From Actinopolymorpha cephalotaxi (lineage in GTDB: Bacteria; Actinomycetota; Actinomycetes; Propionibacteriales; Actinopolymorphaceae), in assembly GCF_013408535.1 (NCBI RefSeq), contig NZ_JACBZA010000001.1, forward strand, positions 744,001 through 808,000: 64,000 nucleotides of DNA. Reading direction: 5' to 3'. The notes below the pieces were generated by a model, which saw only the letters and a program-made list of their open reading frames with translations, was not told where the DNA came from and did no database searches. Position 1 is the first letter of the stretch; every line of letters begins with the position of its first letter. The translations under genes were made by a program, and so were the position numbers. Below, in pieces: positions 30,788-36,101 of the stretch.

Positions 30788-30963
30788 CCGGTCTGCGACG
30801 GTGCCGCGCGAGTGTCGGGTGCCGCCACGAAGGAGGTCCAGTGGTTGCCGCGTGCCAGAACCGCCCGACGCCCTCCACCCAGCCGCCGCCGGAGGCGGTC
30901 GCGGTCTGGCGTGAGTGGACTCCCGAAGACGGCTCCTCCTCGGTGGGGCTATCCTCGCGGGCG

Positions 30964-31578
30964 ATGACAGCTGCCGTGAACGCCGAGACGCCGGAGGAGC
31001 GGAGCGCCCGATTCGAGCGGGATGCCCTGCCCTTCCTGGATCAGCTGTACAACGCTGCCCTGCGGATGACCCGCAACCCGGCGGACGCGGACGACCTTGT
31101 GCAGGAGACCTTCGCCAAGGCGTACTCCTCGTTCCACCAGTTCAGCGAGGGAACCAACCTCAAGGCGTGGCTGTACCGCATCCTGACCAACACGTTCATC
31201 AACACCTACCGCAAGCGTCAGCGGGAGCCGCAGCGCGCCGCCACCGAGGAGATCGAGGACTGGCAGATCGCGCGCGCGGAGTCGCACACCTCGGCAGGGC
31301 TGAAGTCCGCCGAGGCGGAGGCGCTGGAGCACCTGCCCGACTCCGACGTCAAGGAGGCCTTGCAGCAGGTGCCCGACGACTTCCGGATGGCCGTCTACCT
31401 CGCCGACGTGGAGGGCTTCTCCTACAAGGAGATCGCCGACATCATGGGAACACCGATCGGCACCGTGATGTCCCGGCTCCACCGGGGCAGGCGCCAGTTG
31501 CGTGAGCTGCTGCAGGACTACGCCCGCGGGCGCGGGCTGGTGCCGGCGGCGGACGCGAAGGGTGGCGAGAACGCATGA
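30964..31578 (+). CDS. sigR: ECF sigma factor SigR (thiol-oxidative stress), with a possible longer form from 30841
   Basis: 204 residues from the ATG at 30964. Sigma region 2 is [35 protein letters not shown] (residues about 15-50). Region 4 is [39 protein letters not shown]. It directs RNA polymerase to thiol-stress genes when RsrA is oxidised. A second in-frame start, GTG 30841, has a strong AGGAGG (30831-30836) and adds 41 residues, as in the inducible SigR-prime form of Streptomyces. A TATCCT -10-like element (30950-30955) could give a leaderless transcript for the short form. Coupled to rsrA by an ATGA overlap. Confidence 0.95.
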
Positions 31579-31862
31579 GCTGCGGCAAGCCCCACGAGAC
31601 CGACTGTTCGGAGGTCCTCGAGCGGGTCTTCCTCTTCCTCGACCGGGAGATGGAGGCCGCGGACTGTTCGCAGATCCAGCGGCACCTGGACGAGTGCGCA
31701 CCGTGTCTGCAGAAGTACGACCTCGAGGGCCTGGTGAAGTCCCTGGTGGCGCGCTCCTGCGGACAGGACAGGCCGCCGAGCGACCTTCGCCAGAAGGTGC
31801 TCCTGCGCATTCGTGCGGTGCACGTGGAGATCAGCGAGGACTCCGGGCCGCAGGCGGGCTGA
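31575..31862 (+). CDS. rsrA: Redox-sensing zinc anti-sigma factor RsrA
   Basis: 95 residues. The ZAS signature H-x3-C-x2-C is present as HLDECAPC with the upstream His/Cys ligands in [12 protein letters not shown]. Thiol oxidation ejects zinc and releases SigR. The start ATG overlaps the sigR stop by 4 bases. A second Cys near residue 62 (RSCGQ) is additional. An intrinsic terminator follows 81 bases later. Confidence 0.95.
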
Positions 31863-32038: not shown

Positions 32039-32113
32039 TCAGGTGTTGGGGCGCTTGCCGTGGTTGGCGGCCTTCTTGCGCCGGGCCCGACGTCGCCTTC
32101 CGTTCTTCGCCAT
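32039..32113 (-). CDS. Ribosomal protein bL37, 24 residues
   Basis: The whole protein is MAKNGRRRRARRKKAANHGK followed by RPNT, an Arg/Lys-rich peptide ending in the ANHGKRPN signature of bL37. bL37 is a small actinobacterial 50S subunit protein first seen in mycobacterial ribosome structures. The ATG at 32113 has GAGAGGG about 9 nt upstream. It is too short for most gene callers. A longer in-frame extension to 32251 is not bL37-like. Confidence 0.9.
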   Translation of the reverse strand: MAKNGRRRRARRKKAANHGKRPNT

Positions 32114-32819
32114 CTCGTCACCCTCTCGTGGTCCGTGTGTCGCGCACGGTGCACCGATGCGTTCGTACGCCCGGGCATCCTCCCACGACCTCCGATTTCC
32201 TCCAGCAGGGCATCCTGCCGAAGGAGATCGGAGCGAGGGTGTGGCGCTCAAAAAACCTGTGACTCTGCGTAGAGAAATTTTGCGCCCAGGTCCGCCCGCG
32301 GGCCGCCGGATCTGCGGAGATTGGTCACTTTCAGTAATGAACCTTCGAACCGCTCACATCACCGTGGCGGGCACGCCTGCGGGGGACGGAACGCCGGCTG
32401 TGGCCGGGTTCGTCGGCACTCACACGCGCCCGATGGCGCCGTTGACTCTATGTAACTTCGAGTGGTCGATCTGCCGGATTCTCGGTCTGACCATATGAAC
32501 GAGGCGTAACCAGAACTCCTTTGGTTCGTACGGTTTGGGGGATTCTGCGGACAAACCATTACCCACGAGTACTCACCGAGAGTAGTCACTACTCTTCGGA
32601 GTTGCGGCTCCAGTACCGAGTTGACCGCACTGATCTTTTTCCGTTGACTCGTCATCACCGGGTCACGAGCGAGGAGCGGAGCCGCGACCGAGGTGATGTT
32701 TCGGTGGCAGAAAGTGATCATCGTGCCCACGGACCCTTACCTCCGATGTAGCTCTCCGTGGTGGCTTCCCCGGTCCTTGTCGATTCGCCCCACGTCATCA
32801 CTCCAAGGAAGGCAGTCTT
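32114..32819. other. Long non-coding region with a dyad cluster
   Basis: 706 bases without a convincing gene, with several AT-rich patches unusual for this genome (for example around 32249-32285 and 32630-32650). Short open frames here lack ribosome sites and good codon use. It contains an 8-bp palindrome GAGTACTC (32567-32574) and, next to it, GAGTAGT-C-ACTACTC (32580-32594) with flanking CCGA/TCGG pairing. It probably holds the bL37 promoter on one side and the promoter and control region of the micro-ORF/HD cluster on the other. Confidence 0.6.
32567..32599. promoter_or_regulatory. Clustered palindromes, probable protein-binding site or RNA hairpin
   Basis: Two adjacent symmetric elements share the core GAGTA: GAGTACTC (32567-32574) and GAGTAGT-C-ACTACTC (32580-32594), the latter extended by CCGA and TTCGG. 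They lie about 225-250 bases upstream of the first micro-ORF. I do not recognise the regulator. Confidence 0.45.
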
Positions 32820-32876
32820 ATGAACGGCTCTCGCACCAGCGCACCGGCGGCCAAGCGTGGCTGGGAGTGGAGCTGA
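32820..32876 (+). CDS. Micro-ORF 1, 18-residue peptide ending GWEWS
   Basis: Sequence MNGSRTSAPAAKRGWEWS. The ATG has AAGGAAGG (32805-32812) 7 nt upstream, a proper ribosome site. The last five residues match the end of micro-ORF 2 (GWEWS versus GWEWA), with identical codons for Gly-Trp-Glu-Trp. It could be a regulatory leader peptide (three successive codons include two Trp), a secreted or processed signal, or a toxin-like peptide. No known family. Confidence 0.5.
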   Translation: MNGSRTSAPAAKRGWEWS

Positions 32877-33011
32877 CCGTGGGCCCGGCCGGGCGACCCG
32901 GTCAGAGGCGACCATGCACGCGTGCCTGACCTGAACCTGTGAAGTTCGCACGTGCCTTCGCCGGATGACACGGCTGTCACTCGGCCGAAGGGGATGTGCC
33001 CGCCGCGGATG

Positions 33012-33030
33012 CCTGCCGGGAACCGGCAGG
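33012..33030 (+). promoter_or_regulatory. Perfect 8-bp hairpin between the two micro-ORFs
   Basis: CCTGCCGG-GAA-CCGGCAGG, a tight stem with a three-base loop. Just upstream (32955-32991) another hairpin pairs CCTTCG with CGAAGG around an inner TGACA-CGGC-TGTCA. Both lie in the 200-base spacer between the micro-ORFs and could form attenuator-like RNA structure. No U-run follows. Confidence 0.45.
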
Positions 33031-33076
33031 AGGCGGTTACGGAAACTCTGCCGATACCCGAGGAGGAGGCGACATT

Positions 33077-33106
33077 ATGAACTGGAGCGGCTGGGAGTGG
33101 GCGTGA
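33077..33106 (+). CDS. Micro-ORF 2, 9-residue peptide MNWSGWEWA
   Basis: Nine codons with three Trp, preceded by an ideal AGGAGGAGG (33061-33069) 8 nt upstream. It ends 57 bases before the HD-GYP gene and shares Gly-Trp-Glu-Trp with micro-ORF 1. The strong ribosome site on such a short frame, duplicated motif and position argue for real translation. Function unknown; leader peptide control or a processed peptide signal are the options. Confidence 0.55.
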   Translation: MNWSGWEWA

Positions 33107-33163
33107 GGATGGTTGCCGCTGCGGCTAAGCTGCACCGCAGCCGGTCAGGAAGAGTGGTCATCC

Positions 33164-34507
33164 ATGCCGAGTCGGTCCACCCGGGCTTACGTTCTGGGGT
33201 TGTGTGTGGTCGCCGCCTCGGTCTCGGTCATCTCGATCGTCAACGTCTCGCGGCCGACGGACATCGCGTGGTTCGCTGCTCTGGTTCTGCTGACGGTGCA
33301 GCTGAAGGCGCCGCTCGGCCGTAACGTCGACGTGTCGCTCACGTCGGTGGTGGCGGTGGCGACCTACCCGGTCCTCGGGATGTGGGGCGCTCCCGCGCTG
33401 ATCGGCGCCCTATTCGCCACCAGGCAGCAGACCTCCTTCTACAAACGGACCTACAACGTCGCCCAGAACGTCGTCTGCACCTTCCTCGGCGGTGCCACCT
33501 ACGTCGCGCTGGGGGGTGAGGTCGGTGACCTGGCCCGTAGCTCGTTCCCGCAGATCCTGCTCCCGATCACGCTGGCCATCGTCGCCTACCACGTGGCGAA
33601 TGCCGGCCTGCTGATGGGCGTTCTCTGGCTCGACGGCGGCCGAGCGCCCGTGCGCGTGCTCCGCGCCAACTTCTTCGAGGTCTTCCTCTCCTTCCTCGGC
33701 TACTCCTACCTCGGCCTGTTGCTCGCCGTGCTGTGGCTCGGCCAGCTCGGCCCGTTCGCCGGTCTGTTGCTCCTGGTGCCGTTGCTGGTCGCGCGGTGGG
33801 CGTTCGCGCAGTACGCCGCGGAGCAGAAGTCCCACCAGTCCACGCTGCAGGCACTCGCCCAGGCGATCGAGACCAAGGACCTCTACACCCGCGGCCACGG
33901 TGAGCGGGTCGCCCGGGCCGCCCGCATGCTCGGCACCCAGATGGGCTGGGACGGCGACCGGCTGGACGCCGTCGCCGAGGCCGGTCTGCTGCACGACGTC
34001 GGCAAGATCGGCGTACCCACCCGGGTTCTGCAGAAGGACGGCCGGCTCACCGAGGAGGAGTTCGAGGCCATCAAGCAGCACCCGCTGTACGGCGTCGAGG
34101 TGGTCGGTGACATCGCGTTCCTGGAGGACGCCCGGGCCGGGATCATGCACCACCACGAGCGCTACGACGGAACCGGCTACCCCTCCGGACTGCGGGCCGA
34201 GGACATCCCGGTCTTCGCCCGGGTGCTGTCGATCTCCGATGCCTTCGACTGCATGACCAGCGTGCGTTCCTACCGCGCCGCCCGCCCCGTCGCGGAAGCC
34301 CTGGCCGAGCTTCAGCGCTGCCGCGGAAGCCACTTCGACCCCGAGCTGGTCGACCGGTTCGTCACCGCCGTCGAGCACGAGGGGTGGCAGCCCGCGCCCG
34401 TCCAGGCGGTGCAGCCGGTGCCGCCGGCCGAGCAGAAGGTCGTCTTCGACCACGACGACCCGGTGCACCCGCCCCAGGTCGAGGGCTCGGCCGAGGCGGC
34501 CTCGTGA
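33164..34507 (+). CDS. Integral membrane HD-GYP domain phosphohydrolase
   Basis: 447 residues. Six or seven membrane helices fill residues about 8-220, beginning with AYVLGLCVVAASVSVISI. A cytoplasmic HD-GYP domain follows: HGERVARAARMLG, LLHDVGKIGVP (His277-Asp278), HHHERYDGTGYPSGL (the GYP motif) and ISDAFDCMTS with RSYRAARP. All signature residues are intact. HD-GYP enzymes hydrolyse cyclic dinucleotides, classically c-di-GMP. The membrane part probably senses a signal. The ATG at 33164 is used; an earlier in-frame start at 33113 has no advantage. The stop overlaps the next gene by 4 bases. Confidence 0.9.
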   Translation: MPSRSTRAYVLGLCVVAASVSVISIVNVSRPTDIAWFAALVLLTVQLKAPLGRNVDVSLTSVVAVATYPVLGMWGAPALIGALFATRQQTSFYKRTYNVAQNVVCTFLGGATYVALGGEVGDLARSSFPQILLPITLAIVAYHVANAGLLMGVLWLDGGRAPVRVLRANFFEVFLSFLGYSYLGLLLAVLWLGQLGPFAGLLLLVPLLVARWAFAQYAAEQKSHQSTLQALAQAIETKDLYTRGHGERVARAARMLGTQMGWDGDRLDAVAEAGLLHDVGKIGVPTRVLQKDGRLTEEEFEAIKQHPLYGVEVVGDIAFLEDARAGIMHHHERYDGTGYPSGLRAEDIPVFARVLSISDAFDCMTSVRSYRAARPVAEALAELQRCRGSHFDPELVDRFVTAVEHEGWQPAPVQAVQPVPPAEQKVVFDHDDPVHPPQVEGSAEAAS

Positions 34508-35805
34508 GCGGCGCACTGTCGCCGTACCGCTCTCACCCACGACTGGACGGCTCGGTCCTGCTGGCGGTCTGCGCCGGCGTCCTGGTCCTGGTCGCGGTGG
34601 TCGAGACGGCCGTCCGCGGTGTCGCGGCACCCGCCGTGGCGGGCGTGTTCGGGTGCCTCGTCGCGGTCGGGGAGATGGTGCGACTGCGGCTGCCCGACGA
34701 CCGGGTGCAGGCGCCGATCGGGCTCGCCACGGCCCTGGGATACGCCCTGCTCAGTCACCTGCCCACCGAGGGGCGGGCGTCCCACTCGATCCTGCAGACC
34801 GTCGCGGTGACCTCCGGTGGCATGCTCGCCGGCGCGCTCCCGCACGTGCTCGCCGGCCGGTCGGCCGAGCTGGAGGGCATCGCCCGGCGGGTGCTCGTCG
34901 TGGCCGGGGTCGCCCTGCTGTTCCGCCCGCTGGTTCTGGACGAGGACCTGTTCGCCGCGTTCGACAGTCACGTCCCCTCCGACTACGTCCTGCTCACGGT
35001 GGTCGTCGGCCTGGTCGCCTGGCCACTGGAGGCGGTGCTGGCCGCCGGGGTCGCGGCCAGCCAGCAGTGGGGGCCGTTCCGGGCGCTGCTGCGCAACGAG
35101 CTCGGCGCGTTCTTCGGCATCGGCGCGGCGATCGCCTCCACCGGTGTGCTCATCCCGCTGGCCACCTGGGAGGTCGGTCTGTGGGGCCTGCCGCTGGTGA
35201 CCATCCCGCTGCTGCTGGCCCAGCTGTCCTACCGCCGCTACGCCGCGATCAGGCGTACGCAGGTGCAGACCATCCAGGCGCTGTCGCGGGCCACCGAGGT
35301 CGGCGGCTACACCGACGCCGGGCACGCTCGCCGGGTCACCGACCTCGCCCTCGCCATCGGCCGCGACCTGGGCCTGCCCGAACGCCGGATGCGGGTGCTG
35401 CAGTACGCCGGTCTGATGCACGACCTCGGCCAGCTCTCCCTCGCCGACGCCATCCCCGGCGGCGCGACCGTACTGGTGACTCCGGACGAGCGTCGGCGCA
35501 TCGCGACCTTCGGCGCGCAGGTCGTCCGCCAGGCCGGTGTCCTGGAGGACGTCGCGGAGGTGGTGGAGGCGCAGTCCGAGCCGTACCGCCGCCCGCACCT
35601 GCCCGACGACCCGACCGTGCCGCAGGAGAGCCGGATCATCAAGGTCGTCAACGCCTACGACGACATGGTGGGCCGGGCCACCAGCGAGGACGCCCGGCTG
35701 GAGGCGCTGGAGGGGCTTCGGCTCGGGATGGCGTACGAGTACGACCCGCGGGTCGTCGCCTCGCTGGCGAGGGTCCTCGACCGGGTGACGCCGGCCCCAC
35801 GCTGA
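34504..35805 (+). CDS. Second integral membrane HD-domain protein, GYP motif degenerate
   Basis: 433 residues with the same layout as the preceding protein: several N-terminal membrane helices (SVLLAVCAGVLVLVAVVET onward to about residue 245), then an HD domain. The HD pair is kept (GLMHDLGQLS) and GHARRV is present. The HHExxDGxGYP segment is replaced by a stretch around EAQSEPYRRPHLPDDP, so catalysis is doubtful. It probably arose by duplication and may form a complex with its neighbour, sensing or regulating it. The GTG start overlaps the upstream stop. Confidence 0.85.
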   Translation: MSGALSPYRSHPRLDGSVLLAVCAGVLVLVAVVETAVRGVAAPAVAGVFGCLVAVGEMVRLRLPDDRVQAPIGLATALGYALLSHLPTEGRASHSILQTVAVTSGGMLAGALPHVLAGRSAELEGIARRVLVVAGVALLFRPLVLDEDLFAAFDSHVPSDYVLLTVVVGLVAWPLEAVLAAGVAASQQWGPFRALLRNELGAFFGIGAAIASTGVLIPLATWEVGLWGLPLVTIPLLLAQLSYRRYAAIRRTQVQTIQALSRATEVGGYTDAGHARRVTDLALAIGRDLGLPERRMRVLQYAGLMHDLGQLSLADAIPGGATVLVTPDERRRIATFGAQVVRQAGVLEDVAEVVEAQSEPYRRPHLPDDPTVPQESRIIKVVNAYDDMVGRATSEDARLEALEGLRLGMAYEYDPRVVASLARVLDRVTPAPR

Positions 35806-35885: not shown

Positions 35886-36101
35886 GTGGCCGAGCAGGTC
35901 AGAGCGGAAATGGTCGCCAACGTGTTCGAGGTCGCGGTGCATTCCGGCGACCCGGTGCAGGCGGGGCAGATGCTGCTGGTGCTGGAGTCGATGAAGATGG
36001 AGATCCCCGTCCTCGCCGAGCACGCCGGCCGGGTCCGCGAGGTCACCGTCAAGCCCGGCGAGGTCGTGCAGGAAGGTGACGTGCTCGTCGTCCTCGACTG
36101 A
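35886..36101 (+). CDS. Stand-alone biotin/lipoyl attachment domain protein
   Basis: 71 residues forming a single biotinyl domain: VFEVAVHSGDPVQAGQMLLV, the biotinylation motif LESMKMEIPV (Lys at about residue 36), and GEVVQEGDVLVVLD. It would be a free biotin carboxyl carrier protein for an acyl-CoA carboxylase encoded elsewhere. GTG start with AAGGAG some bases upstream. It follows the HD genes by 80 bases; a functional link is unproven. Confidence 0.9.
   Translation: MAEQVRAEMVANVFEVAVHSGDPVQAGQMLLVLESMKMEIPVLAEHAGRVREVTVKPGEVVQEGDVLVVLD

Follow-up and report, generated by a model that had tools for sequence, protein, structure and literature searches.

Conserved tryptophan-core micro-ORFs upstream of hdgA-type HD-GYP genes in actinobacteria: candidate peptide signals

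The window locus

The 64,000-nucleotide stretch of the Actinopolymorpha cephalotaxi genome analysed here (contig NZ_JACBZA010000001.1, positions 744,001 to 808,000; hereafter the window) contains two very short open reading frames (micro-ORFs) followed by genes for two membrane proteins with HD domains. The original prediction, made from the sequence, described frames of 18 and 9 codons, each with a good ribosome site, that share Gly-Trp-Glu-Trp in the same codons and end shortly before a twin HD operon, and all these features were found in place. Both micro-ORFs carry the identical 12 bases GGCTGGGAGTGG (GGC TGG GAG TGG), followed by one codon and TGA, and HD1 starts at 33164, 57 nt past the stop of micro-ORF 2. 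The features are as follows (strand in parentheses).

32805..32812 (+): Shine–Dalgarno (SD) site of micro-ORF 1, AAGGAAGG, 7 nt before the ATG
32820..32876 (+): micro-ORF 1, MNGSRTSAPAAKRGWEWS, 18 aa, ATG 32820 to TGA 32876
32877..33059 (no strand): G+C-rich, folding spacer between the micro-ORFs
33060..33069 (+): SD site of micro-ORF 2, GAGGAGGAGG
33077..33106 (+): micro-ORF 2, MNWSGWEWA, 9 aa, ATG 33077 to TGA 33106
33164..34507 (+): HD1, the HdgA orthologue (Pfam HD_5, 7.8e-41), a multi-helix membrane domain plus an HD-GYP domain
34504..35805 (+): HD2, the degenerate HdgB orthologue (Pfam HD_5, 1.6e-10), overlapping the hdgA stop

The spacer, described earlier as rich in hairpins, does fold but is not the part of the leader that is conserved. 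The pattern TGGGANTGGNNNTGA has exactly two matches in the 6.86-Mb genome, both of them these micro-ORFs, and the reversed pattern, used as a control, likewise has two. A sigma-70 scan of the window leader found no promoter, despite the presence of –10-like hexamers before micro-ORF 1 that look conserved by eye.

The names HdgA (6TM-HD-GYP) and HdgB (6TM-degenerate HD-GYP) are taken from work on Streptomyces (PMC6205966, available in part). In the window, HdgA has intact HD and HHE..DGTGYP motifs (invariant residues compared), the motifs by which HD-GYP domains are recognized, whereas HdgB retains one HD and lacks HHE and GYP (by eye). HdgA is predicted to hydrolyse cyclic di-GMP (c-di-GMP), as is also predicted in the available text of PMC6205966. 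According to an AlphaFold2 model and structure search, its membrane domain (33164-33760) weakly resembles the S-components of energy-coupling factor (ECF) transporters, a fold that the available text of PMC11109136 reports for 5TMR histidine kinases. The two kinds of signalling protein may be alike in having an S-component-like membrane domain, but the output of HdgA is an HD-GYP domain, a term that occurs 0 times in the available main text of that paper.

Conservation across actinobacteria

Searches for hdgA had matches in 25 of 57 relatives at E up to 0.001, in 79 of 246 class genomes (E 1e-60), in 37 of the 59 f36 genomes (E 1e-50) and in 83 of 296 genomes of the phylum (E 1e-60), some of the matches in the last set covering the HD domain only; hdgA starts were extrapolated from the aligned part of the gene. 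A strict rule (within 500 nt upstream of hdgA, an SD site of at least 5 nt and a Trp as the final or penultimate residue) was satisfied at 60 of 87 non-Streptomyces loci, compared with a mean of 2.05 and a maximum of 4 in 20 rounds of Markov shuffling, and Trp was the most frequent of all residues at the scored C-terminal position. This count draws on the relatives and the class survey, minus the window copy L001, L103, L214, L035 and loci with less than 250 nt upstream.

Under a looser uniform rule, an SD-led micro-ORF with a Trp core was present at 111 of 157 loci, L001 included, as against 20.6 expected from shuffles, i.e. chance hits at ∼ 13% of the loci (20.6/157). By group, the rule was satisfied as follows.

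Window family (window included): 8/8
Kribbella type: 20/20
P1 type: 23/29 (29/29 by eye)
f20: 19/21
f16: 4/4
f36: 23/29
Other: 14/17
f67: 0/10
Streptomyces type: 0/19

At several Streptomyces-type loci, most of all L220, the alignment starts deep within hdgA, so that the upstream region may be misplaced. Inspection by eye added micro-ORFs that the rule had missed at six of the 29 P1-type loci and at L148, L290, L292 and L295. Excluded from the 157 were L297, whose upstream region is short, and L103, L214, L035, L166, L272 and L298–L303, which are duplicates or lack upstream DNA. The loci are related, and these counts are therefore not independent trials. The labels Kribbella, Sporichthya and Streptomyces derive from the named loci L033/L034/L036, L035 and L037, respectively.

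Thus, the likeness of the two window micro-ORFs is not due to chance, because the same arrangement recurs upstream of orthologous HD genes. The original prediction was to be abandoned if the micro-ORFs and their SD sites proved unconserved beside such genes; they are strongly conserved in many families. On comparative sequence grounds, the window micro-ORFs are genuine conserved genes and members of a widespread, apparently undescribed family of actinobacterial micro-peptides. The earlier statement that this layout has no described counterpart agrees with our search of the accessible text of open-licence PMC papers, which returned no description of the family. Among ten representative peptides of 20-57 aa, none scored above a curated Pfam or NCBIfam cut-off; both window peptides fall under the 20-residue minimum.

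The relatives L002–L004 keep both micro-ORFs, with length changes in whole codons. In these three, AAGGAAGG also precedes micro-ORF 1, whose counterparts in relatives read MNVVHTSTPAARRGWEWS, MNGVRTSTPAARRGWEWS, MNGVRTTTVTTTVTIATSAAKRGWEWG and MNGVRKCTLVAKRGGWDWG; micro-ORF 2 differs by whole codons in its N-terminal part in L003 and L004 and is degenerate in L005. Copy number varies: L008 has a single micro-ORF ending SSWD, L006 has four ending GFDWG or GYEWG, and L007 carries an array of eleven with GLEWG ends, of which nine lie in a 91-nt tandem repeat. The micro-ORFs of Kribbella-type loci (20/20) are mostly 7-9 aa long, with D/E-W before the stop, e.g. MADYWDW; in 20 distinct C-termini the residue preceding the last Trp is D or E, encoded by GAC, GAG or GAT, and the stop codon varies among TGA, TAG and TAA. 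Sporichthya-type loci encode MREENWKWG and a longer peptide ending ..STAKWE, and at further loci the peptide ends ..GWSWW or ..GISWT.

The P1-type loci span 14 families, and their peptides have the common form M-K/S-K-I-x-x-A-V-E-x-F-L-x-x-G-A-x-W-x-W, of which the N-terminal portion is lost or altered in two families (f8 and f14) and the last Trp is invariant in 28/28. Pairwise differences among the 28 micro-ORFs are 0.395 at the first codon position, 0.352 at the second and 0.505 at the third. Selection on the micro-peptide, judged from the aligned codons, acts at the amino-acid level.

Longer forms, in which signal peptides and hydrophobic helices were called by eye, are found in other families. 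In f36, the core is repeated within single ORFs: AWSWGPQS in two ORFs of L273, where a third ORF ends GWGPQSAWSW, and, twice each, RGWGWGG (L217), RGWEWRGVEG (L275), TWHWNP (L270), TWWWHPRPVA (L287) and FTGWIP (L292). The L278 peptide has a Sec-like leader and ends SWDWN. Outside the class, a hydrophobic stretch precedes the core (MKTKIIVLLTSLAALVLGGGAGWRW; MSKRLLVAMSSLAALVLSAGANVSWIR), and in family f20 the hydrophobic part has been lost and the start, SD site and C-terminus retained (MFGKTVVRLTVALALLTPVVALVGLAAGTPGISWT versus MLKEPVSRAHSGITWT). Because of the repeated cores, the Sec-like or hydrophobic leaders and the f20 loss, the sequences point to a precursor composed of a leader and a core. 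At eight of the ten f67 loci there is a similar hydrophobic peptide that lacks Trp (VKARILMTLAALASLILAGGAGGRLG). These Trp-free peptides (L304, L306, L312, L313, L316–L319) terminate in, for example, AGGAGGRLG or AGGAGSRMG; seven of the eight loci also have a GCGGAGCG-type motif upstream.

In the 29 P1-type loci (L143–L147, L152, L153, L155, L157, L158, L161, L163, L164, L167, L170, L171, L173, L177, L179, L181–L183, L185, L187, L189, L191, L196, L198 and L199), the micro-ORF is enclosed by a long helix of ∼ 25 bp whose 3' strand begins 0-25 nt past the stop. The helix strands of 28 of these loci fold at a native mean of –60.5 kcal/mol compared with –44.5 kcal/mol when swapped, the native pairing ranking first in 16/28. 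Across 25 aligned rows, both sides have changed in 20 of the 25 pairs, and 92.0% of cells are paired, compared with 78.6% after shuffling (0/500 as high) and 32-45% when slid. These counts cover 25 of the 29 loci, as L145 and L187 are duplicates and L147 and L167 have no anchor (L167 pairs less regularly). A conserved core, GCGGAGCGGA followed by a hairpin and GTGAC, precedes the SD site of the micro-ORF, and 5 of its 9 predicted pairs have changed on both sides (27 rows). A model of this core matched 43 times, in 42 of the 394 class genomes: 39 matches lie before hdgA, three are at contig ends and one is weak (G267, E 6e-4), with no hdgA in the 6 kb of sequence covered; in 296 phylum genomes it gave four matches, all before hdgA by coordinates.

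There is no sign that the window leader carries the P1-type RNA. At the gathering score, Rfam yielded no leader match in the window (only tRNA elsewhere) or in 20 relatives; at E up to 5 in 11 relatives the best match had E 0.95, below the cut-off, and the leader-RNA model R1 searched against the genome of the window gave a best E of 0.86, away from the locus. Single-molecule folds of seven full leaders (the window, three Kribbella-type and three P1-type) contained the long helix in the three P1-type leaders, and none of the seven suggested an alternative structure that would switch the hdgA ribosome site on or off. Kribbella-type leaders (L009–L025, L033, L034 and L036) have a second, different conserved fold that ends at the micro-ORF SD site, with the layout GTCAGCG..GTCT..variable hairpin..AGAC..CGCTGATC (by eye, from the alignment); it was not seen by eye in the window leader. 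Near the leader start, both Kribbella-type and P1-type loci have ACAACTGCA followed by A/G-rich bases, despite their different RNA folds; it may represent a promoter or operator element common to both.

Candidate functions of the micro-peptides

The original prediction offered three readings, tryptophan-sensing leaders, peptides perceived as signals by the membrane parts of the HD proteins, and small regulators. The second of these fits best, the fit resting on tandem copies, multi-core precursors and secretion-like leaders, and the perception itself stays conjectural. We give about an even chance to the proposal that the micro-peptide is a product acting on the adjacent membrane protein HdgA, which is favoured because of the multi-core precursors, the arrays and the leaders. 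It builds on the observed conservation, amino-acid-level selection, duplication, linkage to hdgA and RNA helix; the peptide would be translated, exported, bound by HdgA and able to affect c-di-GMP. The conserved part would be a short Trp core (W-x-W or a remnant), as a rule at the C-terminus, and the peptide itself, not a mere by-product of translation, would act on the neighbouring HD-GYP phosphodiesterase. A hydrophobic, amphipathic or Sec-type leader would serve membrane insertion or export; in lineages like that of the window, barely more than the core would be made. The S-component-like domain of HdgA, with HdgB as a partner, may sense the peptide and so set the rate of c-di-GMP hydrolysis, the signal being autocrine or passed from cell to cell. 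Tandem micro-ORFs (two in the window) or repeats in one precursor would raise the copy number of the core, and the structured leader RNA probably sets micro-gene expression in many lineages.

The most complete version of this proposal is a peptide-to-c-di-GMP signalling system in which Trp-core ligands would be recognized by an S-component-fold receptor fused to an HD-GYP phosphodiesterase, with the core amplified in arrays of up to eleven or by repeats within a precursor and its gene lying, in many lineages, in a dedicated structured RNA. We consider this version tentatively, at somewhat short of an even chance. The micro-genes would bring with them a family of micro-peptides and a structured leader RNA, neither of them listed in the libraries searched, as well as a bacterial precursor with repeated near-identical cores; such precursors are, to our knowledge, rare in bacteria. 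In the parts of the literature consulted, HdgA and HdgB have no known input signal, and the micro-peptide is a concrete candidate for it or, alternatively, for a new cis control; both roles are open to study with short synthetic peptides. The available text of the Streptomyces study reports no phenotype for HdgA and HdgB, considers that their activating signals were likely missing under its test conditions, and uses the word 'leader' 0 times (PMC6205966).

A rather unlikely alternative is that the released peptide is idle and that the translation or transcription of hdgA-hdgB is controlled by a ribosome as it translates, or pauses at, the Trp core and the stop codon, through nascent-chain pausing, the supply of Trp-tRNA or re-initiation. 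We retain it for two reasons: the micro-gene was never found anywhere but upstream of hdgA, and the RNA is structured, with a covarying helix around the micro-ORF in P1-type leaders and another conserved fold (by eye) before it in the Kribbella type. Where found, the micro-ORF always lies in cis on the hdgA strand, with a median stop-to-hdgA gap of 36-121 nt in five groups; Trp is at or adjoining the stop in most lineages, forms of 7-9 aa exist, and leader peptides rich in Trp are already known from actinobacteria (PMC1262725, available in part). However, Trp cores are also repeated within longer precursors, distant from the stop; there are Sec-like or hydrophobic leaders (by eye); and an N-terminal helix like MKKIVSAVEQFL is conserved in most of the 14 P1-type families, although a codon sensor needs none.

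The variant in which tryptophan is sensed fares worse as a general answer. Tryptophan sensing is not universal, because eight of the ten f67 loci keep a peptide without Trp, and a classical attenuator is not supported as a general device, because TTTT is missing between the last micro-ORF stop and hdgA at all 74 loci of five groups; by this crude test it is present at 6/37 loci elsewhere (1/23 in f36 and 5/14 in other families). In 13 of the 20 Kribbella-type loci the gap to hdgA is only 31-39 nt, which leaves little room for a terminator and a ribosome site (the remaining seven have estimated gaps of 172-318 nt). The only terminator-like site in positions 32100-33300 of the window lies inside hdgA, with 0.9 expected. 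A universal Trp-starvation attenuator is accordingly disfavoured. According to the available text of PMC1262725, actinobacterial trp leaders contain two or three UGG codons and are followed, ahead of the trp genes, by poly-U terminators. The present leaders resemble them in that a short ORF has UGG codons close to its stop, but five groups lack TTTT, the genes that follow are other than trp genes, and the UGG run varies, W-x-W being common, a single Trp frequent (as in the Y/L/F variants) and none present in f67.

It is improbable that the peptide remains in the membrane, never leaving the cell, as a small regulatory or assembly subunit bound to HdgA/HdgB. Such a role would suit a peptide that shares an operon with a membrane protein and that has, in many lineages, a hydrophobic or amphipathic helix (by eye) together with Trp, a membrane-interface residue. 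The helix is, however, absent from the Kribbella-type and window peptides and is lost in f20 with the C-terminus kept (L193, L195 and L197 versus L168, L174 and L176), and multi-core precursors would not be expected of a subunit.

Two further possibilities were weighed and ranked low. It is very improbable that the peptide is the precursor of a ribosomally synthesized and post-translationally modified peptide whose modifying enzyme is encoded elsewhere: short aromatic cores and multi-core precursors do resemble such precursors, but no tailoring enzyme was found among the ten window neighbours scanned with Pfam (0/10 were a P450, radical SAM, YcaO or peptidase-transporter), and the neighbours that recur across loci are sigR, rsrA, hdgB and the biotin carrier gene. 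A type I toxin-like peptide controlled by long-range folding of its mRNA is equally remote, for although the peptide can be small and hydrophobic or amphipathic, with tandem copies and a long-range 5'-3' helix, the leader RNA is nearly always single-copy and tied to hdgA, forms of 7-9 aa exist, and the linkage to the enzyme pair is fixed.

The nearest analogues of the micro-peptides are the streptococcal ComS/XIP 'WW' pheromones (ComRS), in which a tiny precursor gene adjoins the receptor gene and the last 7-8 residues form the signal, their two Trp lying side by side or, in S. suis, split (PMC5131902, available in part). The ComS/XIP receptor is a cytoplasmic Rgg-type DNA-binding protein, whereas the neighbour here is the membrane HD-GYP protein HdgA, and no Rgg/ComR-type regulator was found among this neighbour and ten further window neighbours. 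The present loci also have precursors with several cores, micro-ORFs in tandem and a leader RNA, none of which is mentioned for ComS/XIP in the available text of PMC5131902. Because the receptor type differs, the micro-peptides are not members of the ComS/XIP family, and we treat the likeness as an analogy, not as a sequence relation.

Neighbouring genes

The other genes of note around the window locus are the following.

30811..31578 (+), start approximate: SigR-type extracytoplasmic function sigma factor
31575..31862 (+): RsrA-type zinc anti-sigma factor (zf-HC2)
32039..32113 (–): divergent 24-aa basic gene MAKNGRRRRARRKKAANHGKRPNT, the upstream border of the leader
35910..36101 (+), start approximate: biotin/lipoyl carrier domain protein

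We take the 24-aa gene to encode a protein similar to ribosomal protein bL37; it is also present in window-family relatives and in part of the Kribbella-type loci. Streptomyces-type loci have the same hdgA/hdgB pair, beside sigR-rsrA, but differ in that no micro-ORF was detected in them (0/19). In two f36 genomes (L283 and L294), the hdgA frame contains one in-frame TGA.
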